Source: Lacihabitans soyangensis
GTDB taxonomy: Bacteria; Bacteroidota; Bacteroidia; Cytophagales; Spirosomataceae
Direction of reading: 5' to 3'
NCBI RefSeq assembly: GCF_024343775.1
Contig: NZ_RJUF01000017.1
Coordinates: 1-64,000, forward strand
Length of the DNA stretch: 64,000 bases
Every line of letters begins with the position of its first letter. The stretch's first letter is position 1. Shown in pieces: positions 24,929-62,381 of the stretch. Both the position numbers and the translations under genes were made by a program. The notes under the pieces were generated by a model. That model made no database searches and had not been told where the DNA came from. It worked only from the letters and a program-made list of their open reading frames with translations.

Positions 24929-26524
24929 ATGCCTTATTTAGACCCATATACTTTAGTATTGACAGAAAAAACGTCGAGTCATTTACTCAGGAGGGCTACT
25001 TTTGGTCCAACCAGACAAGATATTATAAATTTTACCGGTGCTACTGCTGCAGATGCTGTAAATCAACTAATCAGTAATTCAGACTTTATTGTACCAGAAC
25101 CAGTAGATTTGGATATAAATTCTTCAACTAAAGGCGAAACTTATTTATCAAGAGTACCCTATGAAATTAATAAGAATTTTTATTACACTCATTATGTACG
25201 TTTATGGTGGATAGGTATTATGGCAAGGCAAACACCAACTTCAATATTAGATAAATTGACGCTATTTTGGCAAAATCATTTCGTCACCAATGTAGAAATA
25301 GTAAATGAATACAAATTTGAATTTGGATATATTGATTTACTTAGAAAAAATGCTCTTGGCAACTTTAAATATCTTGTGAAAGAAATTACCAAGAATTCAG
25401 CTATGCTAGTTTTTTTGAATGGTAATCAAAATGTTAAGGGAGAACCGAATGAAAATTATGCTAGAGAATTACAAGAATTATTTGTTGTGGGGGAAAAGGA
25501 TTTTTACGGAAATCCTACCTACGAGGAGAATGATGTTAGGGAAGCAGCTAAAGTATTAACTGGTTGGAAAACCAATGCTTACGGAGCCTTACCTCATGGA
25601 ACTTATTTTAGCTCAAATAACCATGATGAGACAGATAAAATATTCTCATCACATTATGGAAACAATATTATTTTTGGAAGGGCTGGGTTGAATGCAGGAG
25701 AATTAGAACTAAATGATCTTGTTTCAATGCTACTTAATCATCAAGAATCTGCGAAATTTATCTGCAGAAAGTTGTATCGGTGGTTCGTAAATCCAAACGT
25801 AACTGAGAATATTGAATTAAATATTATAATTCCATTAGCAACTTTTTTTGCTAGTCCAGCAAATAATTTTGAAATTGAACCAGTTGTACGAAAGTTACTC
25901 ACCAGTCAACATTTTTATGAAGAATCGAATATTGGTTCTATGGTAAAATCACCCTTCGATTTAATAATAGGGTCTATGCGTTTCTTTAATTTCCCAGTTC
26001 CTCAAGTAAGTCCAGCTGAGGTAAGTAGTTATTTGAATTATGTTAATTTTTGTTTTTACCTAATGGAAAATATGCAAATGGAAATTTTAAAACAACCTTC
26101 AGTATTTGGATATGAACCATATTACCAACCAGGATATTCAAAAATATGGATTAACTCCTCAACTTTGGGAAGAAGAAATCAATTTGTTGATGCTATAATA
26201 TATGGTGGTAACCTAGTGAATGCAAATTATAATATTAAAATTGATTTATTCAAACTCGCTTCAACGGCTGACGTTCCAAATAACGCTAACTCCATTGTTG
26301 AGCAATTTGCAAAATTCATGTTTACCCATGAATTAAGTTCAGCCCAAAAAATGTTTCTAGTAAACAATATTATGATGCAAGGGCTTCCATTGACTACTTG
26401 GCAATTTGAGTATAATGCATTTATTGCGGATCCAAATAATATTGATAAGAGAAACGCAGTGGAATACCGATTACAAACATTAATGAGGTATATTTTAAAA
26501 CTCGCAGAATTCCAGATCTGTTAA
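24929..26524 (+). CDS. DUF1800 family protein
   Basis: The 531-residue protein has the DUF1800 opening HLLRRATFGPTRQDIINF near residue 18. LDKLTLFWQNHFVT near 102-115, GEPNENYARELQELFVVG near 172-189 and VREAAKVLTGWKT near 203-215 follow. The biochemical function is unknown. It is always found next to a DUF1501 partner, as here. No signal peptide is visible at the N-terminus, which is unusual for a protein with an exported partner. It begins 3 bp after the initiating transferase and is followed by the DUF1501 gene after 9 bp. Confidence 0.85.
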   Translation: MPYLDPYTLVLTEKTSSHLLRRATFGPTRQDIINFTGATAADAVNQLISNSDFIVPEPVDLDINSSTKGETYLSRVPYEINKNFYYTHYVRLWWIGIMARQTPTSILDKLTLFWQNHFVTNVEIVNEYKFEFGYIDLLRKNALGNFKYLVKEITKNSAMLVFLNGNQNVKGEPNENYARELQELFVVGEKDFYGNPTYEENDVREAAKVLTGWKTNAYGALPHGTYFSSNNHDETDKIFSSHYGNNIIFGRAGLNAGELELNDLVSMLLNHQESAKFICRKLYRWFVNPNVTENIELNIIIPLATFFASPANNFEIEPVVRKLLTSQHFYEESNIGSMVKSPFDLIIGSMRFFNFPVPQVSPAEVSSYLNYVNFCFYLMENMQMEILKQPSVFGYEPYYQPGYSKIWINSSTLGRRNQFVDAIIYGGNLVNANYNIKIDLFKLASTADVPNNANSIVEQFAKFMFTHELSSAQKMFLVNNIMMQGLPLTTWQFEYNAFIADPNNIDKRNAVEYRLQTLMRYILKLAEFQIC

Positions 26525-26533
26525 TGTGAAATA

Positions 26534-28033
26534 ATGAATAGACGGCAATTTTTTACTTCTTCTTCTAGCTGCTTATTGCCACTTTTCTTAGATAAGAAGA
26601 GTTTGAGAGTGTTTTCCAATAGTACACCATTGGTTAAGTCAATTCTAGAAACAGATGCATTGTCTACCGATAGAGTACTAGTTCTGATCTATTTAAACGG
26701 TGGAAATGATGGCTTGAATACTGTTATTCCTTTAGACCAAATGTCGGAATATCAGAGTTTGCGATCTAACATTGCTATTCCAGAAAATAGTGCTTTAGTT
26801 CTGCAAAATCATATCAATATGGGATTACATCCCTCAATGATTGGCTTTAAAAATTTATTTACCGAAGGAAAGCTTTCAATTATTAATTCAGTTTCTTACC
26901 CTAACCCAAACTTCTCTCATCATCGATCAACGGAAATTTGGATGACTGCAACTGACTCAAATGTCCAGGCCGCCACTGGTTGGGCAGGTAGATATTTAGA
27001 TAATCGGTTTCCAAATTATCCTGCTGCCTATCCATCTGTAGAAATGGATGACCCGATAGCTTTACAAATTGGTTATGTAACTTCAACAGCTTTATTGGGT
27101 CCGGCAGAATCAATGGCCATTGCACTTAATGATCCAGAAACATTTAAATTACTCATAGGTGAAGGAACTCCAAATATACCAACTGATTTACCTTGTTGCG
27201 AAGCAGGCGATCTTATTTCATATATTCGCAAGCAAAAGATTTTATCTATTGGTTATGCCGACAGAATTAAGCATGCCGCAGACTTGGGAGCCAATTATGC
27301 AACTTATCCCGTAAATAATGGTTTAGCTGATCAACTAAAAATAGTCTCTAGATTAATTCATGGTGGTTTAAAAACGAAAGTGTACTTGGTAACTCAAGAT
27401 GGTTACGATACTCATGCGAACCAAGTTTCAACTACACCTACTACAGGGCTACATGCAAACTTATTAAAAGATTTATCTGATGCTATTAGTGCCTTTCAAG
27501 CTGATTTGAAGTTACAGAACATTGAAGACAGGGTAGTTGGTATGACATTTTCGGAATTTGGAAGGCGTGCAAAATCTAATAACAGTAATGGAACTGATCA
27601 TGGAGTTGCGGCTCCTGTGTTTGTTTTTGGAACCAAGATTAAACAAAAAGTAATAGGAAATAATCCAGACCTAACTGACCTGGAGAATAATGATATTAAA
27701 ATGCAAATTGATTTCAGGAGGATATATAGAGATATTCTTCAGGATTGGTTTGGAGTTAGTTCACAACTTACTAATCAGTTTTTGTATAAGGATTTTAGTA
27801 CCATCTCTCTTTTTAATGAATATATAGAAAGCGTAAAGTCTGGTAATTGGTTAGATCCATCGACATGGTCAATTGGGAGAGTTCCAAAGTTAGACGAGAA
27901 TGTAAAAATAAACATAGGGCATAAGGTTATTGTAAAGTCTACAGATAGGGTGGAATGTAAATATCTAAACATTTTGGGAAATTTTGAAACAGAGAATGGA
28001 GCGTATTTTAAATCTGGAGGATTGATGAATTAA
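26534..28033 (+). CDS. DUF1501 family protein with extra C-terminal domain
   Basis: The 499-residue protein opens with a Tat-like N-terminus (MNRRQFFTSSSSCLLPLF). It has the DUF1501 body: VLIYLNGGNDGLNTVIPL near 49-66, FSHHRSTEIW near 126-135, VTQDGYDTHANQ near 288-299, and MTFSEFGRRAKSN...GTDHG near 336-358. DUF1501 is related to the alkaline phosphatase/sulfatase superfamily. The last 60-70 residues (SGNWLDPSTWSIGRVPKLDE...) form an added beta-type segment of the kind found in secreted Bacteroidota proteins with NW.DP.TW motifs. The role in the polysaccharide locus is unknown. Confidence 0.85.
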   Translation: MNRRQFFTSSSSCLLPLFLDKKSLRVFSNSTPLVKSILETDALSTDRVLVLIYLNGGNDGLNTVIPLDQMSEYQSLRSNIAIPENSALVLQNHINMGLHPSMIGFKNLFTEGKLSIINSVSYPNPNFSHHRSTEIWMTATDSNVQAATGWAGRYLDNRFPNYPAAYPSVEMDDPIALQIGYVTSTALLGPAESMAIALNDPETFKLLIGEGTPNIPTDLPCCEAGDLISYIRKQKILSIGYADRIKHAADLGANYATYPVNNGLADQLKIVSRLIHGGLKTKVYLVTQDGYDTHANQVSTTPTTGLHANLLKDLSDAISAFQADLKLQNIEDRVVGMTFSEFGRRAKSNNSNGTDHGVAAPVFVFGTKIKQKVIGNNPDLTDLENNDIKMQIDFRRIYRDILQDWFGVSSQLTNQFLYKDFSTISLFNEYIESVKSGNWLDPSTWSIGRVPKLDENVKINIGHKVIVKSTDRVECKYLNILGNFETENGAYFKSGGLMN

Positions 28034-50917: not shown

Positions 50918-52153
50918 CTATCTTTTTAAGATACGTTGAAAGTGTCTTTTTCCATTTTTTTCTATTATTTCTACCAATAGTAATTGTGGTTCGATTGAAG
51001 TGATATTGAATTGTTTTTCAAAATTGAAGATATTTAGAAGATTTAACCCTGCTTGATTAAATACCTTTATCTGTTGAATATCTTTATATTTTAAACCTTT
51101 AATTTCAAAGTAATCAGAAGTAGGATTTGGAAATACGATTAGTTCTTGATTTTCAATATCAGGTATGATACTTACAATTTTAGAAAGTGAGGAACTTCCG
51201 TCCATATCTACTTCCTTGAGCCTATAATAGCCAGTTTTACTCAAGGGATTGCTGTCAATAAACTCATACTTCGTATTAGAATTTTCACTTTTTTTACTTT
51301 CAACTCTACCGATGGTCTCAAAACCAAGTGCGTCAGCACTTCTTTGTACTTCAAAATGTGAAAAATTGATTTCGGAGGTGGTTTCCCAACTAAGTTTTAC
51401 TTTAGCGGTATGTGTTAGCTCTGCATTAAAACCCGCCAGTTTAATGGGTAAGGTGGCAGGATTTGGCGGTGTGCAGGAGCTGTATTTGCTGTAGACGGTA
51501 GCAGCCCCTGGTCCATTCCAATAGGCATATGCTCCATCGCCACTTGTGGTAGTATTCCAGCCACCGGTATCTCCGTTTGTTTCATCGGCATAGTAGCTGT
51601 AAACTGTTGGACTGCCTGAATTAAAGGTAGTTACAATATACCTTTCTTTTGGGGTGGCGGCGGTGTTCGCAAATTGACCAGATGAAGCCCAATTTGAACT
51701 ACTCGAAAATATTATATAAATAGTTGTACTTAGTCCAGAATTGCACCACCCCGAATAATTTATCACGTTATTGGCATCATCGTTCATTAAAATAAAATTG
51801 GAATTAGCCGGTATGGTACTACCCAAAGGAGCATAAGCGAAGCTAATAGCACATCCAGAGTTCGGCAAAAGTGCATTGAGGTCGCTTACAAAACTTCCTG
51901 AGACAGGTGCTCCTATATTATTGGTTAAATTTCCAGAAGTCCCTGGGGCTGTGCTTGTTCCATATCTTATATCAATATTAGATGGAGAAACAGTAAGGTC
52001 GGTTCCACCATTTTTGAAAAACAAAAATTCATTGGCACCCTCGGTACCACACGAATTAATTAAAGCCCCATTCAGGTTTTGGGCAGAAATTTGTTCAAAA
52101 ACACAAAAGAATAATATTATCCATGAGTATTTTGTTATGTATTTATACCTCAT
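50918..52153 (-). CDS. T9SS type-A secreted protein
   Basis: The 411-residue protein has a signal peptide (about 1-25, ending FEQISAQ) and an N-terminal beta-rich domain of unknown fold. A linker phrase LPIKLAGFNAELTHTAKVKL follows, then a fibronectin-like segment with SWETTSEINFSHFEVQRSAD near 253-272 and a C-terminal T9SS type-A sorting domain (LIVFPNPTSDYFEIKGL near 338-354). The second half matches the 60489-61442 protein in wording, so the two share a module. It should be a surface or secreted protein. It is the last gene of the - strand unit that starts with the HPr-kinase-like gene. Confidence 0.85.
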   Translation of the reverse strand: MRYKYITKYSWIILFFCVFEQISAQNLNGALINSCGTEGANEFLFFKNGGTDLTVSPSNIDIRYGTSTAPGTSGNLTNNIGAPVSGSFVSDLNALLPNSGCAISFAYAPLGSTIPANSNFILMNDDANNVINYSGWCNSGLSTTIYIIFSSSSNWASSGQFANTAATPKERYIVTTFNSGSPTVYSYYADETNGDTGGWNTTTSGDGAYAYWNGPGAATVYSKYSSCTPPNPATLPIKLAGFNAELTHTAKVKLSWETTSEINFSHFEVQRSADALGFETIGRVESKKSENSNTKYEFIDSNPLSKTGYYRLKEVDMDGSSSLSKIVSIIPDIENQELIVFPNPTSDYFEIKGLKYKDIQQIKVFNQAGLNLLNIFNFEKQFNITSIEPQLLLVEIIEKNGKRHFQRILKR

Positions 52154-52256: not shown

Positions 52257-53420
52257 TTAGGTTAATGTACGTTTTTGTAAAATTGTTTTTCGCCAAATGA
52301 ATGTAATTACTTTAGAAATGAAGTTTAGTAAGCCAAATCCTTTTGGAAAGGTAATTAATCTTGGGTTTTCGATAAAGTTGGGTGTGGAGAGGTACTGATA
52401 AACATTGGATACGAATATGTATATGGAGATTTTTTCGTCCAAAAGGCTAAAATAGATTTTTGTAAACCTTAACCTATGATCTAACCTTTGCCATACCTTG
52501 CCTGTCTCCCAATAATTACCAATATCTGATATGACTTTATGTTTTTGAGAATGGCCTATTTCTACATCTAAAAATTTTTGATCAAGGATTTCAAGGCCAA
52601 TTTTTAGGAATTTCTTCATACCAAGTTCTGAGGCAATGACCTCCAAGTCGTTGATACTCATACCCGAAGTCTTGATAAATGCAATTAAATCGCAAAAATG
52701 CTTTAATCTTGTCCAACATTCTCGCCCACCATGATGTATTAGAAGCATGGTAAATAATGTGTTCTGGCTTTGATTTATATTACCATTCTCATTAAAAAAT
52801 GCCTCATAATTCACTTTAAAGTCATGAATTTCTTCTTTAATATGCCAGTGAAAATCGATATGAATATTGATGCCAACCGCAGAAATCTTATCCAGCCCAA
52901 CCTCTATAATACCCGGCGTTTCAAATAAACTTTGAATAATAGAATCATTATCAAGTTTTCTGAAATTATTTACATCAAGCACATAACCATCAGCCAATAA
53001 AAGGTAAAGTGCCTTTTTAGCATCTTCTGGATGAACCAGTAAATCGAGATCATGAGTTTCTCTTAGGGCTTGATTTCTGTAAATCTCCTTGATGAACAAA
53101 ACTCCTTTGTAGGGGATAACTCTGAGTTGGTTCTGTTGGAATAGATTTAACAAACGGCTTAATTCTTTCGAAGTGGCTAGGTTGAAAACCGATTGATGAA
53201 ACGTTCTTAATTTAAGTTTTTCATAGAATTCATTCCTGCAATCAACCTCTTGAAGTGCTTTAAATACTACTGGTCTTATGGCATGAAATGTAACAAGTTT
53301 CTCTAATCTTCCCCAGTCTATCTCTCTTTGAAGCAAAATCGCTAATTTGTTTGTTGGTTTATCCAACATACAAACTTTAATAGCTTCTAACAATATTTCT
53401 ACTTCATTACTCTGTTTCAT
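52257..53420 (-). CDS. Nucleotidyltransferase-family protein (NTP_transf_5-like) of the lasso locus
   Basis: The 387-residue protein has a central nucleotidyltransferase core: VIPYKGVLFIKEIYRNQALR near 96-115, then THDLDLLVHPEDAKKAL near 118-134 with the two-Asp metal site. VNIHIDFHWHIKEEIHDF-like wording follows near 185-202. Large helical regions flank it. This family is repeatedly found in lasso-peptide clusters next to HPr-kinase-like genes, and in exopolysaccharide clusters, but its reaction is not settled. Its ATG overlaps the stop of the HPr-kinase-like gene by 4 bp. Link to lasso tailoring is by context. Confidence 0.82.
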   Translation of the reverse strand: MKQSNEVEILLEAIKVCMLDKPTNKLAILLQREIDWGRLEKLVTFHAIRPVVFKALQEVDCRNEFYEKLKLRTFHQSVFNLATSKELSRLLNLFQQNQLRVIPYKGVLFIKEIYRNQALRETHDLDLLVHPEDAKKALYLLLADGYVLDVNNFRKLDNDSIIQSLFETPGIIEVGLDKISAVGINIHIDFHWHIKEEIHDFKVNYEAFFNENGNINQSQNTLFTMLLIHHGGRECWTRLKHFCDLIAFIKTSGMSINDLEVIASELGMKKFLKIGLEILDQKFLDVEIGHSQKHKVISDIGNYWETGKVWQRLDHRLRFTKIYFSLLDEKISIYIFVSNVYQYLSTPNFIENPRLITFPKGFGLLNFISKVITFIWRKTILQKRTLT

Positions 53421-54364
53421 TCAAAATTACGTACGAAGGTCAGTAGTTTCTCAAAATTCTTTGGTCTATTCATTCTTCTCACTGATACTTGGCGACCAAT
53501 TTTTAATGCATTATCAAAATGCCTTTTTAAACTTTCATTTTGTAAAATTTGATGAGGTAGTGGATAATATTTTAAGAGTTCAATTGGAATGTGCACCAAA
53601 GGTATTTCTGATTTTTTTTTGGAATATGGCTTTTGAAGAATAATAATTTCGCTTAATTCAACTGCTATTTGCGGAAACAACTCTGGATTTTGACGAAACA
53701 GAAATTTGGTATTTCCCTCAAATGAAGGCTCGAGCGAAAGCATTTCAATTTCTAAATTTACAACACTTTTTTGCCAAATTTTAACTTCTGGGTAAGCCGG
53801 CATCACAGAAGGTATACCATTTTCATCAATCCGAATTGCGGTGAGGTCATCACTCAAGACAGTGTAACCAGCTTTTGCAAATGCCGCCACAGTTGTTGAT
53901 TTACCAGCACCTGGAGGACCTATGAAAATGGTTGCTTTATTGCCGATTTTTACGGCACTTCCATGAAGAAGAAAGAAACCTTGCTGTTGAAGAATCAGGC
54001 CTAGTGCTTCGCTTACTGCAAATAACCTGAAAAAATCATCGTTATTTTGAAGTTTAACATATTCAATATATTTGCCATTATGGGCTAAAAATGTACAAAC
54101 TTCTGGCCAGTTTATGAAGTATTCTTTTTCAGTTAGCCCTACTCTGGCTTGAATACCAGCTCGAAAAATCTTGGTTTTTTTATAGTTTTCAATAGAGAAT
54201 TCTCCTTTTCGAAAATAGATATCTGGATTTTCTCCCTTAACTTCTGGAAGCTTTAGATCAAAATCGGATTCAATAATCAAATTATAGGCCTTAAACAACA
54301 TTGAGTAGCGTTTTAAAATGTGCTTTGCCTGTAAATATCTCATTTTTAATCCATAAATTGGCAT
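53417..54364 (-). CDS. HPr-kinase-like protein (possible lasso-peptide kinase)
   Basis: The 315-residue protein has the HPr kinase/phosphorylase fold core. FFLLHGSAVKIGNKATIFIG near 130-149 runs into the P-loop GPPGAGKSTTVAAF near 149-162, and GYTVLSDDLTAIRI near 166-179 supplies the acidic pair. It lacks the N-terminal domain of true HprK, and no HPr gene is near. Related kinases in paeninodin-type lasso clusters phosphorylate the C-terminal Ser of the precursor. The precursor here has no C-terminal Ser, so the target is open. It is divergent from the C25 peptidase gene with only 29 bp between starts, and coupled to the nucleotidyltransferase gene. Confidence 0.82.
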   Translation of the reverse strand: MPIYGLKMRYLQAKHILKRYSMLFKAYNLIIESDFDLKLPEVKGENPDIYFRKGEFSIENYKKTKIFRAGIQARVGLTEKEYFINWPEVCTFLAHNGKYIEYVKLQNNDDFFRLFAVSEALGLILQQQGFFLLHGSAVKIGNKATIFIGPPGAGKSTTVAAFAKAGYTVLSDDLTAIRIDENGIPSVMPAYPEVKIWQKSVVNLEIEMLSLEPSFEGNTKFLFRQNPELFPQIAVELSEIIILQKPYSKKKSEIPLVHIPIELLKYYPLPHQILQNESLKRHFDNALKIGRQVSVRRMNRPKNFEKLLTFVRNFE

Positions 54365-54393
54365 AGTTATTAGTAAATAGTAATTAAAAATCT

Positions 54394-57300
54394 ATGTGTA
54401 GGAATTCGGTCTATTGTTTTTTATTTTTTATCCTTTTGACAGTCAAGGGCCAAGGACAGTTCGGTAATGAGTGGATTAATGAAAACAATGTTATTTTTAA
54501 AATAACAATTAAAGAAAAGGGCATTTATAGATTGGGTTACGATGAATTGAAAATTGCGGGCTTTCCTGTCGAAACCTCTAAACCGAAGTCCTTCCAACTC
54601 TTACATCATGGCAGGCAAGTGCCTTTATATATTTATGGTGAGGAAGATAACCATTTTGATATTGAAGATTATATAGAATTCTATGCCGAGGGAAACAATG
54701 GTGAACAGGACTCACTTCTCTACAGACCTTACGGCTCTCGCATGAATATATACCATAGTTTGTTTTCGGATGAGACAGCCTATTTTCTAACCTATGGAGA
54801 TACGCCCTCGCGAACGGAGATTATTCCGTCAATAACGTTTAATTCCGAATTAATCGAAAAATTTCATCTTGAGCAACAAATTAGGGTTTTTGCAGACCAG
54901 TATTCATTCAACAATAGTATAGGATTCCCACCTTTTGTAATGCAAAGTTATTTTGAAGAAGGTGAAGGATGGACCGGAAAAATAGTGGTGGCAGATACTG
55001 CTGCAAAGTTTCCGATAAAAATGTTGAATTATTTGCCCCAATCAGATTTACCGCCCATTTTGGAGTGTCTTGTAAACGGTAGGACCGAAGTTACCCATGA
55101 TATCAATATTAGTGTTGAGAATGTAGATGGTTCTAATAGAAGTATTGGAAAAATTGACTACTTCGGTTTTGCCCCTTTAAAACTTCAAACGCACATAAGG
55201 CCAGAGGAGATTTCTTCGGCCGGACAGGTTTTGCTACGAACCAAGTCTTCCAAAAAAGAAAGAACAGAATGGCATTCCATGACCTATCATAAACTTACTT
55301 ATCCGCAGGCGTTCGATATGAGTGGATTACAATCAAAGTATTTTTATTTGAATCCTTCCACGCAAACAAATCGTTATTTGCTTATTAATAATGCCTCGCA
55401 AAACTCTACGGCTTACACTATAAAAAATAGATATTCTTTTCAGAAAATACCCAATCAGTTAATTAATAACAAATTAGGTTTGGCTATTGCCACAGTCCCA
55501 TCAGTACAGACTACTATTTTTGTAAGTTCGGATATCAAAAAACCTTTAGCTATTGAGAAAGTCAATTTGAATTTAGAATATAAGGTGGATGCCAATTATC
55601 TTATCATTACACATCCAAATTTAAGACTCTCCGCCAACGAATATGCCAAATATCGAGACTCTGAAGAAGGAGGAAAATTCAAAACTAATGTAATAGAAAT
55701 ACAGGACTTATACTTAAATTTTGCATTTGGTGAACGTACACCACTCGCCATCAGAAGATTTATCGATTTCAAATTGTCTAATGGTAATAAAATTGACAAT
55801 CTTCTGCTCATTGGTCGTGGAAAGAGTTTTCCTGACCAACTCAAAACAGATGTAACGTCCGATATGGTGCCGACGTTTGGGTATCCCGGTTCTGATATTC
55901 TGCTCACTGCTGGATTGCAGGGTTTTGATATTGATGTTCAGGCTGTACCAACTGGTCGGTTAAGTGTAATTTCTAACCGCGAGGTATTGAATTATCTTCA
56001 AAAACTGAAAGAATACGAGGCCAATACAGAAGATGTTTTGTGGAAAAAAAATCTTTTGCACTTAAGTGGCGGTGGTTCCAAAACCGAAATTTCTTATTTT
56101 AGAGGTATTCTAGAAAGTATTGAACCCAAGGTGGAGGATAGTTATCTGGCAGGAAAAGTAGAGGCTCTTTCTAAGGTTACTGACGCCACTGTTGAAAATA
56201 TTGATATTTCCTCTGAGGTAAATAATGGACTAGGAATGATTACATTTTTTGGACATTCCTCTTCCACTGCCACAGATCTAAACATAGGCAACGCCTCTAG
56301 CCCCTCCTCTAAGCTTCAAAATAAAGGTAAATATCCGCTCATGTATTTTAATGGCTGCGGGGTAGGTAATGTTTTCAATAGGTATGACTTGCTTACCTCA
56401 GATTGGCTTATTACACCTAACGTTGGGGCAGTCGCTGTTTTTGCCAATTCCTTTTGGAGTTATGATACCCCTACCAACCGTTATATACATAATCTCTATG
56501 AAAAACTTTTTCAGGATAAAGAAACAATTGGCCTTTCGATAGGTGAAATCCAGCAGGCTGTAAATCGCAAAATCAAAACAGAAGGGGCTGACCAGTTGAT
56601 GTTGTCAAATATTCATCAATTGGTACTGCAAGGAGATCCTGCTCTCAGAATATTTTCATTAAAGAAGCCGGATTTGAAAATGGAAAGAATCTTTATTAGG
56701 TCTGCCAAAGAAGGCCTTCCCATATCTGCTAATGATTCAGTTTCTGTTGGTATAGTAGTTTCAAATTTGGGTAGATACGAGAAGAATACCAACTTCAAAG
56801 TGTCTTTGTCGGCAATTGAAGGACAAAAAGCTCTTCAGAAAATTGCAATTATTCCTGCAGTAGCACACAGAGATACCATAATTCTAAATTTGAAAAAGGA
56901 TCTGAACATATCGGAAATTACGGCAACATTGGATTTCGATAATAAAGTGGAAGAGTTTAACGAGAAAAACAATTTTGGCATATTAAAAATTAACTGGTCA
57001 GAGGCAAGCCCATATGCTAGTTTTCCTCCCGATATAGTAGTTGATAAATTGGGGCCACTATTAGATGTGTATTTTGATGATGTAAAATTGAGAAATGAGG
57101 ATTTTGTGGATTCAAAGGCTTTAATTAAAATAATACTTTCGGACGAAAATCCACTTTTTTCTAAGGATACTTCTGGGATTTCATTGTATTTACAAGCTTG
57201 TGAAAGCTGTAGATTAATAAAAGTGCCAGCTGCTAGTATTACACAGATTCAGGTTACACCAAATACTGTTGAGGCACAGTTTGTTCTTCCAAATTTACCA

Positions 57301-57678
57301 AAGGGACGGTATAGTTTGTTCGCTGTTGGAAAAGATAGTCATCAGAATACGTCCGGAAATGGATATAGTATTACTTTTCAAATTTCAGAAGGCTTCCAGC
57401 CTACAAAGCTAAGAATCTATCCAAATCCAGCTGAAACATTTGCAAATTTAGAATTTCAGGTAATCGGTTCATCTAAGCCAATAGAAGGGGTTGTTTATCT
57501 TTACGATAGTTTTGGACGACTTAATGAAAAGGTAATTTTTTCTCCAAAAATTGGTAAGAATGATTTGTTTATTAATCAAAATGGAAAACTACCAGCAGGT
57601 ATTTATGTTTTCAAAGCTCTTATTAATTGGTCTGATGGCAATGTGGAAACATTAGAAGGTAAAATAATAATAAAGTAA
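54394..57678 (+). CDS. C25-family (gingipain/PorU-like) cysteine peptidase, T9SS cargo
   Basis: The 1094-residue protein has a signal peptide (about 1-21) and an N-terminal PorU-like region with GIYRLGYDELKIAGFPV near 42-58. The C25 catalytic domain is at about 415-760, with catalytic His621 in FFGHSSS and Cys655 in YFNGCGVGN. A C-terminal T9SS sorting domain follows, beginning LRIYPNPAETF near residue 1007. PorU is the sortase of T9SS but normally lacks its own sorting signal, so this is more likely a secreted C25 peptidase. It is the only + strand gene in the lasso island. Whether it acts on the peptide, the cargo proteins or neither is unknown. Confidence 0.88.
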   Translation: MCRNSVYCFLFFILLTVKGQGQFGNEWINENNVIFKITIKEKGIYRLGYDELKIAGFPVETSKPKSFQLLHHGRQVPLYIYGEEDNHFDIEDYIEFYAEGNNGEQDSLLYRPYGSRMNIYHSLFSDETAYFLTYGDTPSRTEIIPSITFNSELIEKFHLEQQIRVFADQYSFNNSIGFPPFVMQSYFEEGEGWTGKIVVADTAAKFPIKMLNYLPQSDLPPILECLVNGRTEVTHDINISVENVDGSNRSIGKIDYFGFAPLKLQTHIRPEEISSAGQVLLRTKSSKKERTEWHSMTYHKLTYPQAFDMSGLQSKYFYLNPSTQTNRYLLINNASQNSTAYTIKNRYSFQKIPNQLINNKLGLAIATVPSVQTTIFVSSDIKKPLAIEKVNLNLEYKVDANYLIITHPNLRLSANEYAKYRDSEEGGKFKTNVIEIQDLYLNFAFGERTPLAIRRFIDFKLSNGNKIDNLLLIGRGKSFPDQLKTDVTSDMVPTFGYPGSDILLTAGLQGFDIDVQAVPTGRLSVISNREVLNYLQKLKEYEANTEDVLWKKNLLHLSGGGSKTEISYFRGILESIEPKVEDSYLAGKVEALSKVTDATVENIDISSEVNNGLGMITFFGHSSSTATDLNIGNASSPSSKLQNKGKYPLMYFNGCGVGNVFNRYDLLTSDWLITPNVGAVAVFANSFWSYDTPTNRYIHNLYEKLFQDKETIGLSIGEIQQAVNRKIKTEGADQLMLSNIHQLVLQGDPALRIFSLKKPDLKMERIFIRSAKEGLPISANDSVSVGIVVSNLGRYEKNTNFKVSLSAIEGQKALQKIAIIPAVAHRDTIILNLKKDLNISEITATLDFDNKVEEFNEKNNFGILKINWSEASPYASFPPDIVVDKLGPLLDVYFDDVKLRNEDFVDSKALIKIILSDENPLFSKDTSGISLYLQACESCRLIKVPAASITQIQVTPNTVEAQFVLPNLPKGRYSLFAVGKDSHQNTSGNGYSITFQISEGFQPTKLRIYPNPAETFANLEFQVIGSSKPIEGVVYLYDSFGRLNEKVIFSPKIGKNDLFINQNGKLPAGIYVFKALINWSDGNVETLEGKIIIK

Positions 57679-57680
57679 GG

Positions 57681-58373
57681 TTATTTAGAAATCCCCTTTT
57701 CTAATAGTTTGATTTTTCGAACCACCCCAAAATCTATCTGGTTCTTTCCAATGCATGTTGGACTGGACTGACAGTATGCTAATACCATTTTTTCGCTGTA
57801 GATCATCCCGTAGGTAGGAGCATATACTTCGAAATGAACGTTCTTTGTTATCAACGAAGAATCATTTTTCAAATATACCGACACAGTGTTGTTGAAATAA
57901 TTACCGTTTACTGCAAAACTTTCCCCTATATTTTGATATATATTTTTTTCTACATTTAAGTTGTTGTACTCATTTCTGTTCCAATATTGCCCACTTTGGA
58001 TAGGGAAAACTAGTTTCACTTGGGTAATATTGTTCTCCGTTCTGATAGCCCTATTTGCAAACAATTGGCTACTCCATACGGAGTCTATTTTCCAAGGGTG
58101 GGCTAAATCTTGTTTTTTGAATCGTTGAATTTTATAAACTTTATCTTTGGTAGGATTTTCATATACTTCATTGACTTCCTCTTTTATATAATATTTCGCC
58201 TGAATTTCAATATTAGGAATGTTATAACGAGTCTCTGAAACTTCATAAACTTGATATTGTCCAAGCTCCAAGGGAAAATAGGTATAGTCGGACATTTGTC
58301 CATTTTCTTGCTTTTCGCAGCTAAATAACAAAACAGACAGGACAAGAATGTTAATAATATTAAGTCGATTCAT
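57681..58373 (-). CDS. Predicted lipoprotein coupled to the lasso cyclase gene
   Basis: The 230-residue protein has a lipoprotein signal (MNRLNIINILVLSVLLFSCE) with the lipobox Cys near residue 19. A beta-rich body follows, with YTYFPLELGQYQVYEV near 30-45, then alternating beta-type strands. No enzyme motif is seen. Its start overlaps the end of the cyclase gene by 14 bp, so it is translated with the lasso genes. An outer-membrane role such as export, reception or immunity for the peptide is possible but is inference. It is convergent with the C25 gene, whose stop is 2 bp away, so no terminator fits between them. Confidence 0.72.
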   Translation of the reverse strand: MNRLNIINILVLSVLLFSCEKQENGQMSDYTYFPLELGQYQVYEVSETRYNIPNIEIQAKYYIKEEVNEVYENPTKDKVYKIQRFKKQDLAHPWKIDSVWSSQLFANRAIRTENNITQVKLVFPIQSGQYWNRNEYNNLNVEKNIYQNIGESFAVNGNYFNNTVSVYLKNDSSLITKNVHFEVYAPTYGMIYSEKMVLAYCQSSPTCIGKNQIDFGVVRKIKLLEKGISK

Positions 58374-60306
58374 TACTAATTATTTTGAGATGTTTTGCCT
58401 GTAATTTATCAAAAAAATCAAGCCAAAGGGCGAGATGTATAGTCCGGTTGGCTAGCCAGATATACTTAGTCTTTTTGTTGATTGTTACTTTATGGTCGAA
58501 AATTTTTAATAGTAGTTGATCGAAAACTAACTTGTCAACAATGTCCCAAACCCTATGACTATCACTATTTTCGGTACCGAAATCATGCCAAAGCTGTTCG
58601 AAATATTTCATGAAATAATGCGAGAAATCAGCTTTGGATGTTCTTAGCCTAACCGTTTCTGGTAAAATATCTTTCATAGCATAACGTAGAGTTCCTCTAC
58701 AATTACCCTCTGCAAATCTTGTTTCAGAATTAACCGCAACCGCTATTTCTACTAATCTTTTGTCAAGAAAAGGATGAATAGCTTGCACTCCAAGACTTTT
58801 CATTACTGTATTTTGTTGTTCTATAACCGACATGTTTAGGTTAGTAAAACTATATCCGAAATGTTCTTTTCTGAAAGAATCCAAGTCTTTCTTAGTTCCT
58901 TTAAATTCAAATAAAGGGGTCTTATGCTGTTGATTTACAAGATTTAGTAGGCTGTATTTTTTGTTTTTTTTAGAAAGTTTGTTTCTAATGAAAGTGAATC
59001 CTGTCTGAAAAGGAATAAAAAAAACAAATTTGTATTCTAATAGAAAGCGATTCCAAATACTGAAAGCCCTCTTCAAATTGCCTTTTTTAACAAAATCAAT
59101 TATTTTTCTTTCAATAAAAAACTTTGTGTACAACTTGCTCTTTTGTCGATTTGATTTTCTGTTCCAATCTTCAAAAAATGGATTCAAGTCTCTTTTGGAA
59201 ACATATTGTTCAATGCTAGACTTTAGTAGGCTCCAATTTCCATCGTTTACAAGTTCATCCAAATATTCTGTTCCATAGGCCACAACTGCATCGCCACCAT
59301 CACCAGTTAGGATTTTTTTACTGCCAAGTTCTTTTGCTTTCTCGGCTAAAGAGAAAAATGAGTATCCGGGTATAAATAGAGAATCGGGCAGCCCACAAAT
59401 TTCTATGTTTCTTTTAGCCAATTCTAAAGGATTCTCAGAGGCATGAATTTCGTGATGTTCAAGTTCCCACCTTTCTACTACTTCATTAGCAAAGTGTCGT
59501 TCATCGCTTGGCCTGTCGCCAGTGCAGAAATAAAGAGAATTAACATCACAACCTAGAAGTTTTGAAATACTCGAAATGCTAGATGAGTCTAATCCTCCGC
59601 TAAGATTGGAACAAATTTTTTCGTTTGGTAGCGTATTCTTTTTAATCGAATCCTTTAAAGTTTCCTTAAAGAGTCCTATTAGTTCAGAAGGGGTACGGTT
59701 TACATAATCAGGAATTTTAGTGTTCCAACAGCACTCTTGAATGATTTTAAAATCTTTTAAATTGCAAACAACTTTATGAGCTGGAAGTACCTTTGAAACA
59801 TTTAGAAAAAGAGTTTCTGAGCAATATGGTCTACTGAGGGCATTAAAATCTAAATAATTCTTTAAAGCAGTGTAATTGACAGAAGATGAGGAGTAATTTA
59901 CAATATCGAGTAAGTCGGTGGCAACTGTAAAACTTTTATCACCGGCCTGATAAAATAAGTTTTGTAAACCGAAGTGATCCCTAAATCCAACAATATTATT
60001 TGATAAAAGATCTATTATTGCCAACGCAATTTTTCCATCTAAAGTATTGAATAAATCGTTACCAAGAGTGGTATAAGCATTCAAAACAGCCTCCGCAAGG
60101 TTGGTGGATGTAGTGTTGTGTGGGCTTATATAATCTTGCTCATTATGAAGCTTGCCTTCAACTACACATATAAGCCCTTGGTGGTTATTGAAAAAACTAA
60201 TCTGTTTACAGTTGGTATATATATGCCAAAGTTCATTAGAAAATAAAGTCCAATGTTCAAATGGCATTGGCAAGTCTTTACAATTAAAGCGGATTAGAAA
60301 TGCCAA
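58360..60306 (-). CDS. Lasso peptide cyclase (asparagine synthetase-like, C protein)
   Basis: The 648-residue protein is an asparagine-synthetase homologue. The synthetase half has the pyrophosphate loop SNLSGGLDSSSIS near 234-246, YFCTGDRPSDERHFANEVVE near 260-279, KKILTGDGGDAVVAYG near 334-349, and PFLDKRLVEIAVAV near 533-546. The N-terminal glutaminase-like half lacks the nucleophile Cys2 expected in AsnB (the start is MAFLIRF). That fits lasso cyclases, which activate the acidic side chain with ATP and close the isopeptide ring on the core N-terminus. The TTG start at 60306 lies 10 bp after the precursor stop. A later ATG at residue 14 is possible. Confidence 0.88.
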   Translation of the reverse strand: MAFLIRFNCKDLPMPFEHWTLFSNELWHIYTNCKQISFFNNHQGLICVVEGKLHNEQDYISPHNTTSTNLAEAVLNAYTTLGNDLFNTLDGKIALAIIDLLSNNIVGFRDHFGLQNLFYQAGDKSFTVATDLLDIVNYSSSSVNYTALKNYLDFNALSRPYCSETLFLNVSKVLPAHKVVCNLKDFKIIQECCWNTKIPDYVNRTPSELIGLFKETLKDSIKKNTLPNEKICSNLSGGLDSSSISSISKLLGCDVNSLYFCTGDRPSDERHFANEVVERWELEHHEIHASENPLELAKRNIEICGLPDSLFIPGYSFFSLAEKAKELGSKKILTGDGGDAVVAYGTEYLDELVNDGNWSLLKSSIEQYVSKRDLNPFFEDWNRKSNRQKSKLYTKFFIERKIIDFVKKGNLKRAFSIWNRFLLEYKFVFFIPFQTGFTFIRNKLSKKNKKYSLLNLVNQQHKTPLFEFKGTKKDLDSFRKEHFGYSFTNLNMSVIEQQNTVMKSLGVQAIHPFLDKRLVEIAVAVNSETRFAEGNCRGTLRYAMKDILPETVRLRTSKADFSHYFMKYFEQLWHDFGTENSDSHRVWDIVDKLVFDQLLLKIFDHKVTINKKTKYIWLANRTIHLALWLDFFDKLQAKHLKIISNEST

Positions 60307-60316
60307 AATGCTTTAA

Positions 60317-60460
60317 TTAAGGATTATATGTATTAGTGAAATCTGGCGTAGAACCTCCTTTTAGCGTAAGCTTGGAAACCGACCCATGTTTGATCAACTG
60401 AGGGGCCGTGTATTTTTTCTTTGCTTTTTTATCGTTAGTATTCGAATTTTTCATTTTCAT
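60317..60460 (-). CDS. Lasso peptide precursor (47 residues)
   Basis: A small gene in the 182-bp gap between the T9SS gene and the cyclase, on the cyclase strand. The leader has the canonical RRE-binding pattern YxxPxLxxxGxxxxxT as Tyr17, Pro20, Leu22, Gly26, Thr32 (YTAPQLIKHGSVSKLT). The first 16 residues are Lys-rich. After Thr32 come LKGGSTPDFTNTYNP and the stop. The only acidic residue there is Asp40, the expected ring acceptor. By the Thr(-2) rule the core is KGGSTPDFTNTYNP, with a 7-residue ring Lys1-Asp7. Starts at Gly35 or Leu33 would give rings of 6 or 8. Start is ATG 60460, with an in-frame ATG at 60454 as the alternative. Confidence 0.88.
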   Translation of the reverse strand: MKMKNSNTNDKKAKKKYTAPQLIKHGSVSKLTLKGGSTPDFTNTYNP

Positions 60461-60488
60461 AAAAGTGTAAAAGTATTCCTTATTAAGT

Positions 60489-61442
60489 TTAGTTGATAGC
60501 CACTCGGTATTTTTTTATACCTGAAGCAGTAGTGATTTTCAAGAAGTAAATACCGCTCTCTGGTTTATTTGGGAAGTCTAAGGTATAAGTAGTATCTTCT
60601 TTTCTTAGTATACCATCTATTTTTTTACCGCTTGCATTATAGACATCGCTAGATATTATAGTTTCGTTGTTTTTCATCTTAAAACTTCCAGTTGATGGAT
60701 TCGGATAGATTATGATTTCCGAAGCCCCTCCATCTGAGTTGATATCAATAATTTTTGAAAACGATACCGTACCATCTTTGTCAACTTGCCTTAACCTGTA
60801 GTAGTTAATTCCTGGAAAAGGGTTGTTATCAATAAATCTGTAGTTAATTTTCTCTGTGGATTCCCCATCTGCTTTAATTGTTTCTAAATCACCGAATTCC
60901 AAAGCATTTCCACTTCTTTGAACAACAAAATGGCTAAAACCAATTTCAGACTCTGTTTGCCAGTTTAAAGCAATTTTGTTTGATTGAGATATACCATTGA
61001 AGTAGCTTATCTTGACTGGGTTAGGATTGGTCTGGGTTACTGTAATTGCATTACATAGCGAGCTAAAATTATTATTGGCTGTTGTGCCTTCTAACGAAAG
61101 GCTCGGTGCAGTATTACACGGGATTGTTACGTTCGTAAATGTATGATTTATTACAACGCCATTACCTAGGTTATTAAGATTGCCAGTATTTGTGCAATTA
61201 ATGGTAGTTAAAGAACTAGTTTTACAAACAGGGTTAATAATTGGCGTTGCATTCAAAACAGAAAATCTGGCCGCTTTTGCAGAGTTGGATGTAGTAGTTA
61301 CGGACATTGAGATGTTGTAAGTGCAGTTTCCACCAAATGATGAAACAAAAGTTATGTTAGCTGTACCATTTCCAACACAAGCCTGACCGTTCACAAAATA
61401 AGCTTGTATGAATAATCCAAATGTTAGTAAAATATTTTTCAT
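60489..61442 (-). CDS. T9SS type-A secreted protein inside the lasso operon
   Basis: The 317-residue protein has a signal peptide (about 1-19, ending YFVNGQ). A Cys/Asn/Thr-rich beta domain follows (about 20-140, with six or more Cys), then NWQTESEIGFSHFVVQRSGN near 168-187 and a T9SS type-A sorting domain beginning near residue 240 with IIIYPNPSTGSFKM. The second half parallels the 50918-52153 protein. It lies between the B2 gene and the precursor, 28 bp before the precursor start on the same strand, so both are probably on one transcript. A role in displaying or binding the peptide is inference. Confidence 0.85.
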   Translation of the reverse strand: MKNILLTFGLFIQAYFVNGQACVGNGTANITFVSSFGGNCTYNISMSVTTTSNSAKAARFSVLNATPIINPVCKTSSLTTINCTNTGNLNNLGNGVVINHTFTNVTIPCNTAPSLSLEGTTANNNFSSLCNAITVTQTNPNPVKISYFNGISQSNKIALNWQTESEIGFSHFVVQRSGNALEFGDLETIKADGESTEKINYRFIDNNPFPGINYYRLRQVDKDGTVSFSKIIDINSDGGASEIIIYPNPSTGSFKMKNNETIISSDVYNASGKKIDGILRKEDTTYTLDFPNKPESGIYFLKITTASGIKKYRVAIN

Positions 61443-61699
61443 GATTCTAGATTAATTAAAATTCCAATTTTATTATATTTAATTTTTGAGGTGGGTAATA
61501 TTGAGACATTGTTCATTTCTAGCAAATCATTGTCTTCAAAATCACTGTTTATTCATTTCTTTAAGACCAAGTCAGGTTTGTTGAGTAACATTATTTTTGT
61601 GTCAATCGTTTCTGTAAGACATTGACTGAATAACCTTTGTGCGACGAAATTAAAAATGTTAAAATACATTTTGAGTTCATATGCTTGTGTTGTTAATTT
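61443..61699. other. Gap between the B2 gene and the T9SS gene
   Basis: A 257-bp AT-rich stretch. Both strands were searched for a second lasso precursor. Only very short frames without the YxxPxLxxxG motif were found. No exact TAnnTTTG box was found on the - strand. Confidence 0.5.
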
Positions 61700-62128
61700 T
61701 CAGTACGTCCATAATGGAATCCATGAATTTCTTGTGTTCTGTTCCATAATTGTTTCACCCTTTTTCTCAAGCCAAGCATGTGCCTCAAATCCATTTATTT
61801 TAGACACCCCTATTTTAAGTTGAATGTCATTTCTATTTTGAAATAACATCTTAGCTGTTAAGGTTTTTATTAGGCAAGTGCTTTGGAAAGGTGTAAATTT
61901 CGCTGTTCGTGTTACAATATACATGATCATTTCGTCATCAATTTTTCTGAGGTAATAGGTTGGTACAAAATCACTCATTCTTTTGTATATACGAACAAAT
62001 GTCTCAAATGGATTTGTCCTTAGGAAAAACCAATTAAAAAAAAGTAGAATCCAACTGACGCAATGGGCCAACTTAAGGGTTGTGCTGAGTTCGCAAAATA
62101 ACCTAAGCAATTTCCAATAGTTTTTCAT
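61700..62128 (-). CDS. Lasso leader peptidase (transglutaminase-like, B2)
   Basis: The 142-residue protein has the B2 (Transglut_core3) pattern. Catalytic Cys85 lies in FTPFQSTCLIKTLTAKMLF, IQLKIGVSKI lies near 102-111, and His117 is in FEAHAWLEKKGE. The 32-residue Cys-His spacing matches McjB-type enzymes. Glu129 lies where the family's third, acidic, catalytic residue is expected. The enzyme cuts the leader from the core. Membrane-like hydrophobic residues near 24-36 are common in this family. Its ATG overlaps the B1 gene by 26 bp, so B1 and B2 are translationally linked. Confidence 0.88.
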   Translation of the reverse strand: MKNYWKLLRLFCELSTTLKLAHCVSWILLFFNWFFLRTNPFETFVRIYKRMSDFVPTYYLRKIDDEMIMYIVTRTAKFTPFQSTCLIKTLTAKMLFQNRNDIQLKIGVSKINGFEAHAWLEKKGETIMEQNTRNSWIPLWTY

Positions 62129-62381
62129 GCAGAAGTTCGTTGATTATTTTCTCGAGGTCATTGGTTGCCACACTAACGTCAACATCATAATCATCCAGGA
62201 TTAAGGCCTTGAGCTCTTCGAAAGTGACAGATTCAGTTTTTAATCTCTCCCAAATGGTGGTACCTACCTCGTTGAGCTCATAGTATGTGCCTTTTCTGTG
62301 ATTAAGCAAAATCGTAGATCCACATAAGTTTGAGGACACCTGGCATTGGCTTGCTCGGTATTTGGCTAAGGAATTAACCAT
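62103..62381 (-). CDS. Lasso RRE protein (PqqD-like, B1)
   Basis: The 92-residue protein is a PqqD-family RiPP recognition element. STILLNHRKGTYYELNEVGT near 22-41 gives the beta-hairpin, and TIWERLKTESVTFEELKALI near 41-60 starts the helical part. ILDDYDVDVSVATNDLEKII near 60-79 continues it and LHEKLLEIA closes it. It binds the precursor leader through the Tyr-Pro-Leu-Gly motif and delivers it to B2 and the cyclase. It is the first gene of the B1-B2 unit. A candidate promoter lies about 130 bp upstream. Confidence 0.88.
   Translation of the reverse strand: MVNSLAKYRASQCQVSSNLCGSTILLNHRKGTYYELNEVGTTIWERLKTESVTFEELKALILDDYDVDVSVATNDLEKIINELLHEKLLEIA

Follow-up and report, generated by a model that had tools for sequence, protein, structure and literature searches.

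Why should the genes for a lasso peptide stand among those for a secreted surface protein and a sortase-like protease? This question is raised by a block of nine genes in Lacihabitans soyangensis (contig NZ_RJUF01000017.1, the first 64,000 nucleotides of which were analyzed and are referred to as the window). The genes of the lasso pathway, encoding a leader-binding protein (B1), a leader peptidase (B2), the precursor (A), the cyclase (C), a kinase and a nucleotidyltransferase, share the block with those for a cargo protein of the type IX secretion system (T9SS), a lipoprotein and PorU2, a C25 protease the family of which is named "putative sortase" in NCBIfam. Based on the recurrence of such neighbors in related genomes, the lasso peptide is proposed to work with T9SS surface proteins in a shared cell-surface function in which PorU2 acts, a reading to which we give a probability of about 0.5.

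Precursors and cargo genes

A profile built from 25 precursors matched 26 of 119 genomes, with one to nine matches in each, and the precursors were scattered within genomes (up to six per genome among the genomes read). At the order level 27 of 291 genomes were matched, all in the window's family; at the phylum level the number was 6 of 395, consisting of three in that family and three weak partial matches. The family is the one used for grouping in the genome search, which by NCBI taxonomy covers Leadbetterellaceae (Lacihabitans) and Spirosomataceae (Dyadobacter). Of 82 profile matches, 66 precursors fitting the core pattern T-(0 to 2)-K-x-G-(S/G)-x-x-D were chosen; their Lys, Gly and Asp are thus fixed by the selection. 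Fifty-nine have Lys, Ser and Asp at core positions 1, 4 and 7 (Lys1, Ser4, Asp7), while the other seven have Gly1 and Asp8 and all belong to genus g32, which is Dyadobacter for those matched to named genomes.

A same-strand gene for a protein with a T9SS sorting domain was located within 250 nt of 52 of the 59 Lys1-Asp7 precursors, compared with none of the seven Gly1-Asp8 precursors, none of the 15 lasso precursors of other types which the same profile found in the family, and 30 of the 1026 genes taken from the loci as background (about 3%). Precursor matches longer than 250 aa were excluded from these counts and one duplicate non-Lys1 precursor was dropped; the 52 pairs include short genes matched by the PorU2 profile (L169, 516 aa; L194, 555 aa). 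The gap between precursor and cargo gene had a median of 30 nt, the cargo gene lying upstream in 37 and downstream in 15 cases. The seven Lys1 precursors lacking a nearby cargo gene were those of loci L034, L038, L168, L171 (at a contig end), L182, L184 and L192. In the loci chosen by their kinase gene, sorting domains were found in 10 of 250 background genes.

Labels from an early iterated T9SS-cargo profile were not counted because that profile had absorbed PorU2 and other sorting-domain proteins; new profiles were made, with Pfam and NCBIfam as independent checks. Pfam's own model PF18962 was found in 47 of 62 neighbor proteins and in 3 of 95 controls. Genes labeled C, B1, B2, lipoprotein, kinase or nucleotidyltransferase had been removed from the neighbor set and one repeat dropped (63 to 62), and the controls were sampled from 255 eligible genes. 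In one of these checks, the 25 families listed did not include the sorting domain. Taken with the sortase-like enzyme often encoded nearby, the recurring adjacency of precursor and cargo genes suggests a role with surface proteins rather than that of a simple antibiotic, and a functional coupling of the lasso system to T9SS cargo is considered quite probable.

Lasso peptides have mostly been studied as free antimicrobials and enzyme inhibitors. The most probable alternative is a free lasso peptide of the ordinary kind, active as an antimicrobial or in metal handling, the genes of which settled by chance among common T9SS genes. Sorting-domain genes are indeed common enough to appear at the background rate given above, and the PorU2 and lipoprotein families also occur where lasso genes do not; the excess beside Lys1 precursors, over both background genes and other lasso precursors, nevertheless makes this explanation unlikely. 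Bacteriocin cores usually diversify, whereas here similar cores stand beside unrelated cargos. In genome G006, with six closely similar cores, none of the 15 cargo pairs was similar (E 1e-3) once the last 170 residues had been removed, and the same was true of 0/6 pairs in G001, 0/3 in G030 and 0/1 in G042. Core identity exceeded leader identity in G001, G006, G020, G030, G032, G042 and G047. Similar cores with unrelated cargos are the pattern expected of a peptide that serves whatever surface protein is encoded alongside it.

Two other types of precursor were observed. At L198 4975, L204 4975 and L205 4963, precursors with a core near LAGGSxSADVPGGAT lie between a LuxR-like gene and a gene for a secreted curli-subunit-like repeat protein (both assigned by eye), a possible second pairing of lasso-like precursors with surface proteins. 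At L136 10037-10860 (G004), three tandem precursor-like open reading frames (ORFs) with long Gly-rich tails, unlike the Lys1 type, stand beside an HPrK-like gene.

The lasso locus

The ORFs for B1, B2, cyclase, precursor, HPrK-like protein and nucleotidyltransferase, which a first-pass annotation had read as a lasso peptide locus, were all recovered at the positions given in Table 1. That annotation had named as grounds for doubt a lack of matches to models of the leader-recognition domain (RRE), B2 or lasso cyclase, or a precursor frame not conserved in related genomes. Matches above cut-off were obtained for all three proteins (PF05402, NF033537 and PF00733) and the precursor frame is kept in a related Lacihabitans genome, so the lasso interpretation is supported. 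Based on model matches, synteny and the precursor rules, the block is almost certainly a lasso peptide locus, the product being predicted from its genes. The annotation was incomplete in that the cargo, lipoprotein and PorU2 genes in the same range, by which the locus is distinguished, were not listed. The kinase and nucleotidyltransferase genes it reported are present; they were treated as extras, although both recur beside B1 and B2 in the family.

Table 1. Features of the lasso peptide block in the window
Feature	Coordinates	Strand	Basis
NTP_transf_5 nucleotidyltransferase, 387 aa	52257..53420	-	PF14907; HDLDLLV motif
HPrK-like kinase, 315 aa	53417..54364	-	TIGR04352 match below cut-off; P-loop GPPGAGKS and Asp-Asp retained
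PorU2, C25 sortase-like protease, 1094 aa	54394..57678	+	NF052324; His621, Cys655
Lipoprotein, 230 aa	57681..58373	-	Lipobox-like Cys19; AlphaFold2 model
C, lasso cyclase of the asparagine-synthetase family, 648 aa, start codon TTG	58360..60306	-	PF00733, NF033535
A, lasso precursor, 47 codons, leader YxxPxLxxxGxxxxxT	60317..60460	-	NF033521; conserved in L033 and in a 25-row alignment
Predicted core KGGSTPDFTNTYNP, Lys34-Pro47; ring Lys1-Asp7; Ser4 possible kinase site	60320..60361	-	Prediction by the T(-2) and Y(-17) rules
T9SS cargo protein, secreted, 317 aa, with a sorting domain at the C-terminus	60489..61442	-	TIGR04183, PF18962
C-terminal sorting domain of cargo, residues 245-316	60495..60710	-	TIGR04183 match range
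B2, leader peptidase, 142 aa	61700..62128	-	NF033537
B1, PqqD-like leader-binding protein (RRE), 92 aa	62103..62381	-	PF05402, NF033536; ortholog in L033

B1 scored 58.2 bits against PF05402 in the Pfam scan (cut-off 23.4) and matched NF033536 with an E value of 2.3e-14, yet below that model's 80-bit cut-off. B2 matched NF033537 with 54.2 bits (cut-off 33); its catalytic Cys and His are retained, while Gln occupies the third position, at which 27 of the 30 B2 sequences aligned have Asp or Glu. The leader motif of the precursor reads YTAPQLIKHGSVSKLT, and the match to the lasso leader model NF033521 was 25.7 bits (cut-off 19). The cyclase gene starts 10 nt past the precursor gene. Its product gave 116.5 bits with PF00733 (cut-off 21) and 196 bits with NF033535 (E 1e-57), yet the latter is below the model's 525-bit cut-off; the ATP-binding motif SGGxDSS was invariant in a 12-row alignment. 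The kinase match to TIGR04352 was 38.2 bits, the cut-off being 200, and the nucleotidyltransferase, the gene of which shares 4 nt with the kinase gene, scored 117.3 bits against PF14907 (cut-off 31.2).

A cyclase, separate B1 and B2, a kinase K and a nucleotidyltransferase N are likewise present in bsf of Bradymonas sediminis and psm of Bacillus pseudomycoides, while pade of Paenibacillus dendritiformis has the kinase without the nucleotidyltransferase (PMC10368454, PMC9266682). The window block differs from all three in its additional cargo, lipoprotein and PorU2 genes and in that no D exporter was found among the ten window proteins scanned. In 21 cyanobacterial lasso loci (L264-L267, L271-L287), C was mostly accompanied by B1, B2 and kinase, in several cases also by the nucleotidyltransferase, and none of the 21 had a match to PorU2, the lipoprotein or T9SS cargo.

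Core peptide and predicted ring

The YxxPxL motif of the leader, shared with bsf, occupies positions -17 to -12 in the lasso precursors of PMC10368454, and Thr is at -2 in those reported earlier. By both register rules Lys34 is core residue 1, from which a 14-residue lasso with a seven-residue Lys1-Asp7 ring and an expected [M+H]+ of 1480.670 is predicted. The distance from leader Tyr to Thr was 15 residues in 66/66 precursors in a search which left it free, and the Lys was invariant in 25 aligned cores. Taking Gly35 as residue 1 would give a six-residue ring and was rejected. With Leu33 as residue 1 the ring would have eight residues ([M+H]+ 1593.754), a less likely register which violates both T(-2) and Y(-17).

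Seven-residue macrolactam rings are known from xanthomonins and huascopeptin, the latter with a Gly1-Asp7 ring (titles cited in PMC13352647), whereas residue 1 is here predicted to be Lys; the bsf ring is Gly1-Asp8. Lys at core residue 1 would be an oddity among lasso peptides. In pade and psm the kinase site is a C-terminal Ser, as in the paeninodin type. Phosphorylation at such a site was rejected for the window core, which ends in Pro; the C-terminal residue was Ser in 4 of the 66 precursors.

Cargo, lipoprotein and PorU2

The cargo gene lies 28 nt upstream of the precursor gene, and its product has a type A sorting domain with matches above cut-off to TIGR04183 (39.3 bits) and PF18962 (36.2 bits). 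The start of the lipoprotein gene overlaps the end of the cyclase gene by 14 nt. Cys19 of the lipoprotein was invariant in 35 aligned rows. In its AlphaFold2 model (pLDDT 92.5) the best solved fold match was the YmcC-like exported protein 3fzx (Z 13.8, rmsd 4.6, 172 aligned), followed by 4fvs (Z 12.9); lipid-carrier half-barrels gave Z 6-9, the LolA and LolB rows Z 6-8. Since Foldseek gave TM < 0.5 on the same model, the fold is taken as a hint only, one which suits a binding role in the envelope. PorU2, encoded convergently with the lipoprotein at a distance of 2 nt, scored 868.9 bits against NF052324 (cut-off 450), and its catalytic His and Cys were retained in 54/54 sequences. PorU, like PorU2, is a C25 protease with His and Cys and goes with sorting-domain cargo (PMC8545088, PMC7468200). 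PorU2 differs in its length (about 1090 aa, compared with open frames of 1617-1675 aa for PorU-like genes) and in being encoded with lasso genes.

All nine genes were present in identical order in Lacihabitans sp. CCS-44 (genome G003, locus L033): B1, B2, T9SS cargo, A, C, lipoprotein, convergent PorU2, kinase and nucleotidyltransferase. The cargo ortholog was 63% identical, and the core is KGGSTPDFANGYTP there compared with KGGSTPDFTNTYNP in the window. Comparison by eye showed different genes beyond B1, those for ATP synthase in L033, while the opposite flank has at least three genes in common with the window. As judged from this orthologous block, the arrangement is more than chance.

Further genes of these families were located elsewhere in the source genome. 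Contig C36 carries a second precursor, with the core KTGSTTDFGEQGFV by the same register, accompanied by B1, two secreted-protein genes (one with a sorting domain) and a partial PorU2. On contig C186 a partial PorU2 at the end is preceded by nucleotidyltransferase, short cyclase and lipoprotein genes, and contig C53 holds a further kinase and a second B2. In the window, just beyond the nucleotidyltransferase gene (50918-52153, minus strand), a 411-aa secreted protein is encoded; its T9SS sorting domain is weak, its linker resembles that of the lasso cargo, and it has no counterpart at that place in G003. At a distance from the locus (24929-28033), two adjacent genes for proteins of 531 and 499 aa, which we take to resemble a DUF1800/DUF1501 pair, come after an apparent long exopolysaccharide gene cluster (1-25 kb).

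Partner genes in relatives

In 61 loci read, the window included, A and C recurrently had cargo, lipoprotein and PorU2 as neighbors; the other four genes, B1, B2, kinase and nucleotidyltransferase, were either joined to that block or located elsewhere. Where loci were chosen by the kinase (n=20), B1, B2 and kinase were found together in 15 and with the nucleotidyltransferase in 12. Named Bacteroidota cyclase loci (n=59) were drawn from the best 80 of 425 relatives matched with a cyclase alignment, the window cyclase alone as query having given none; PorU2 was present in 44, the lipoprotein in 43 and both in 42. Distances between PorU2 and cyclase genes were taken from the best 50 PorU2 matches. 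A cyclase was located within 10 kb of 29 of the 43 PorU2 open frames shorter than 1500 aa and of none of the seven longer, PorU-like frames. The lipoprotein family was found in 92 of 119 genomes and the cyclase in 40 of 198.

Two tandem PorU2-like genes, a gene for a protein of about 605 aa with a sorting domain, and a Gly1-Asp8 precursor in which core position 2 is Lys are found in many of the Dyadobacter clusters (L092-L105 and named loci). A trio of short cyclase, lipoprotein and PorU2 lacking a precursor was considered as a non-lasso system; this was rejected, as the same genomes hold scattered precursors and separate B1, B2 and kinase genes.

A number of observations weigh against a shared function of lasso peptide, surface protein and PorU2. 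PorU2 and the lipoprotein are not specific to lasso loci, since both occur away from lasso genes: 14 of the 43 genes of PorU2 size had no cyclase within 10 kb, and among six such loci which were read (L112-L117) the lipoprotein was present in one; the lipoprotein family also occurs in a larger share of genomes than the cyclase (see above). Loci L084, L091 and L102 have PorU2 and lipoprotein with a non-Lys1 core, and four loci of the Runella group (L083, L087, L090, L099) have a Lys1 precursor and cargo and no PorU2 within about 10 kb. Cargo was directly adjacent for only 22 of 52 precursors in the named loci, the sorting-domain gene of about 605 aa lies farther from the precursor in many Dyadobacter loci, and for two of the 15 precursors of other types (L202, L203) the distance to such a gene is 254 nt, just above the 250-nt limit. 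Similar cargo pairs were found in G020 (3/15) and G047 (1/3, over 13 residues), and in G053 the leaders are more alike than the cores. No exporter was detected among the ten window proteins scanned. Finally, the genes counted are related by descent, so that the counts are not independent and Fisher values overstate the evidence.

Proposed function

The following sequence of events is proposed. In the cytoplasm, B1 would hold the leader, B2 would cut after Leu33 and C would close Lys1 onto Asp7. The kinase would phosphorylate the conserved ring Ser4, in parallel to BsfK, which phosphorylates ring Ser3 (PMC10368454), and an addition to this phosphate may be made by the nucleotidyltransferase. 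The lasso peptide would then get to the envelope and act on the co-encoded surface protein. There, PorU2 would remove the cargo sorting domain and attach the C-terminus thus exposed to the side-chain amine of Lys1, with the lipoprotein as docking or anchoring partner. In the proposed lasso the N-terminus would be consumed in the ring and Lys1 would supply a free amine.

The chemistry has a precedent in PorU, which removes sorting domains (PMC4804311, PMC8545088) and, as a sortase, acts on the amine of the linking sugar of A-LPS (PMC7468200, PMC8545088); in Porphyromonas gingivalis and Tannerella forsythia an amide bond connects the C-terminus of the cargo with an amino-acyl linking sugar (PMC7468200). 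That Lys1 is invariant, that each cargo has its own precursor and that PorU2 is encoded in the cluster would be most simply explained if PorU2 covalently joined the lasso to the cargo, although this step is put forward tentatively. Extended to these Cytophagales, the peptide would be a covalent tag or anchor: each such cargo brings a little-changed copy of the precursor, one maturation set serves them, and PorU2 swaps the sorting domain for the lasso via Lys1. This extension is likewise doubtful, if conceivable.

Alternatively, the lasso peptide could be an inhibitor or timing device for PorU2, its rigid Lys1 ring blocking the active site of this gingipain-family cysteine protease as long as cargo is not yet in position. 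The Lys is found in all 25 aligned cores, cleavage by gingipains takes place after Lys or Arg, and PorU2 adjoins A and C in many clusters. Such a device would leave one precursor per cargo gene at scattered sites unexplained, and PorU cleavage is said to be sequence-independent (PMC4804311); this alternative is judged rather improbable. A secreted pheromone, with the lipoprotein or cargo as sensor and surface-protein expression under its control, is more improbable still: cores are alike within a genome and three non-Lys1 precursors (L198, L204 and L205) adjoin genes which by eye are LuxR-like, but no recurring regulator was seen beside Lys1 precursors (by eye, with no systematic search) and many copies of one signal gene, each with a different cargo, would be odd.

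Significance

In the literature searched, which mostly did not extend to subscription journals, neither a link between lasso peptides and the T9SS nor PorU2 itself was found; the one lasso peptide paper found to mention Spirosoma concerns other peptides. A further likeness is to the MNIO-modified DybA, one of the RiPP-lipoprotein hybrids of Bacteroidota, in which a ribosomally synthesized and post-translationally modified peptide (RiPP) uses general protein-maturation machinery of the envelope, as is proposed here; those hybrids have no lasso ring and are lipidated via their own signal peptide (PMC12636315).

A part in the construction of the cell surface is suggested by the family-wide pairing of one lasso type with a sortase-like protease and T9SS proteins; the lasso peptide would work alongside the T9SS surface proteins encoded beside it. 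PorU2 thereby gains a concrete partner to test, in environmental bacteria. If the covalent tag proposed above is real, the lasso peptide of these organisms would be a building block of protein display and not a free natural product.

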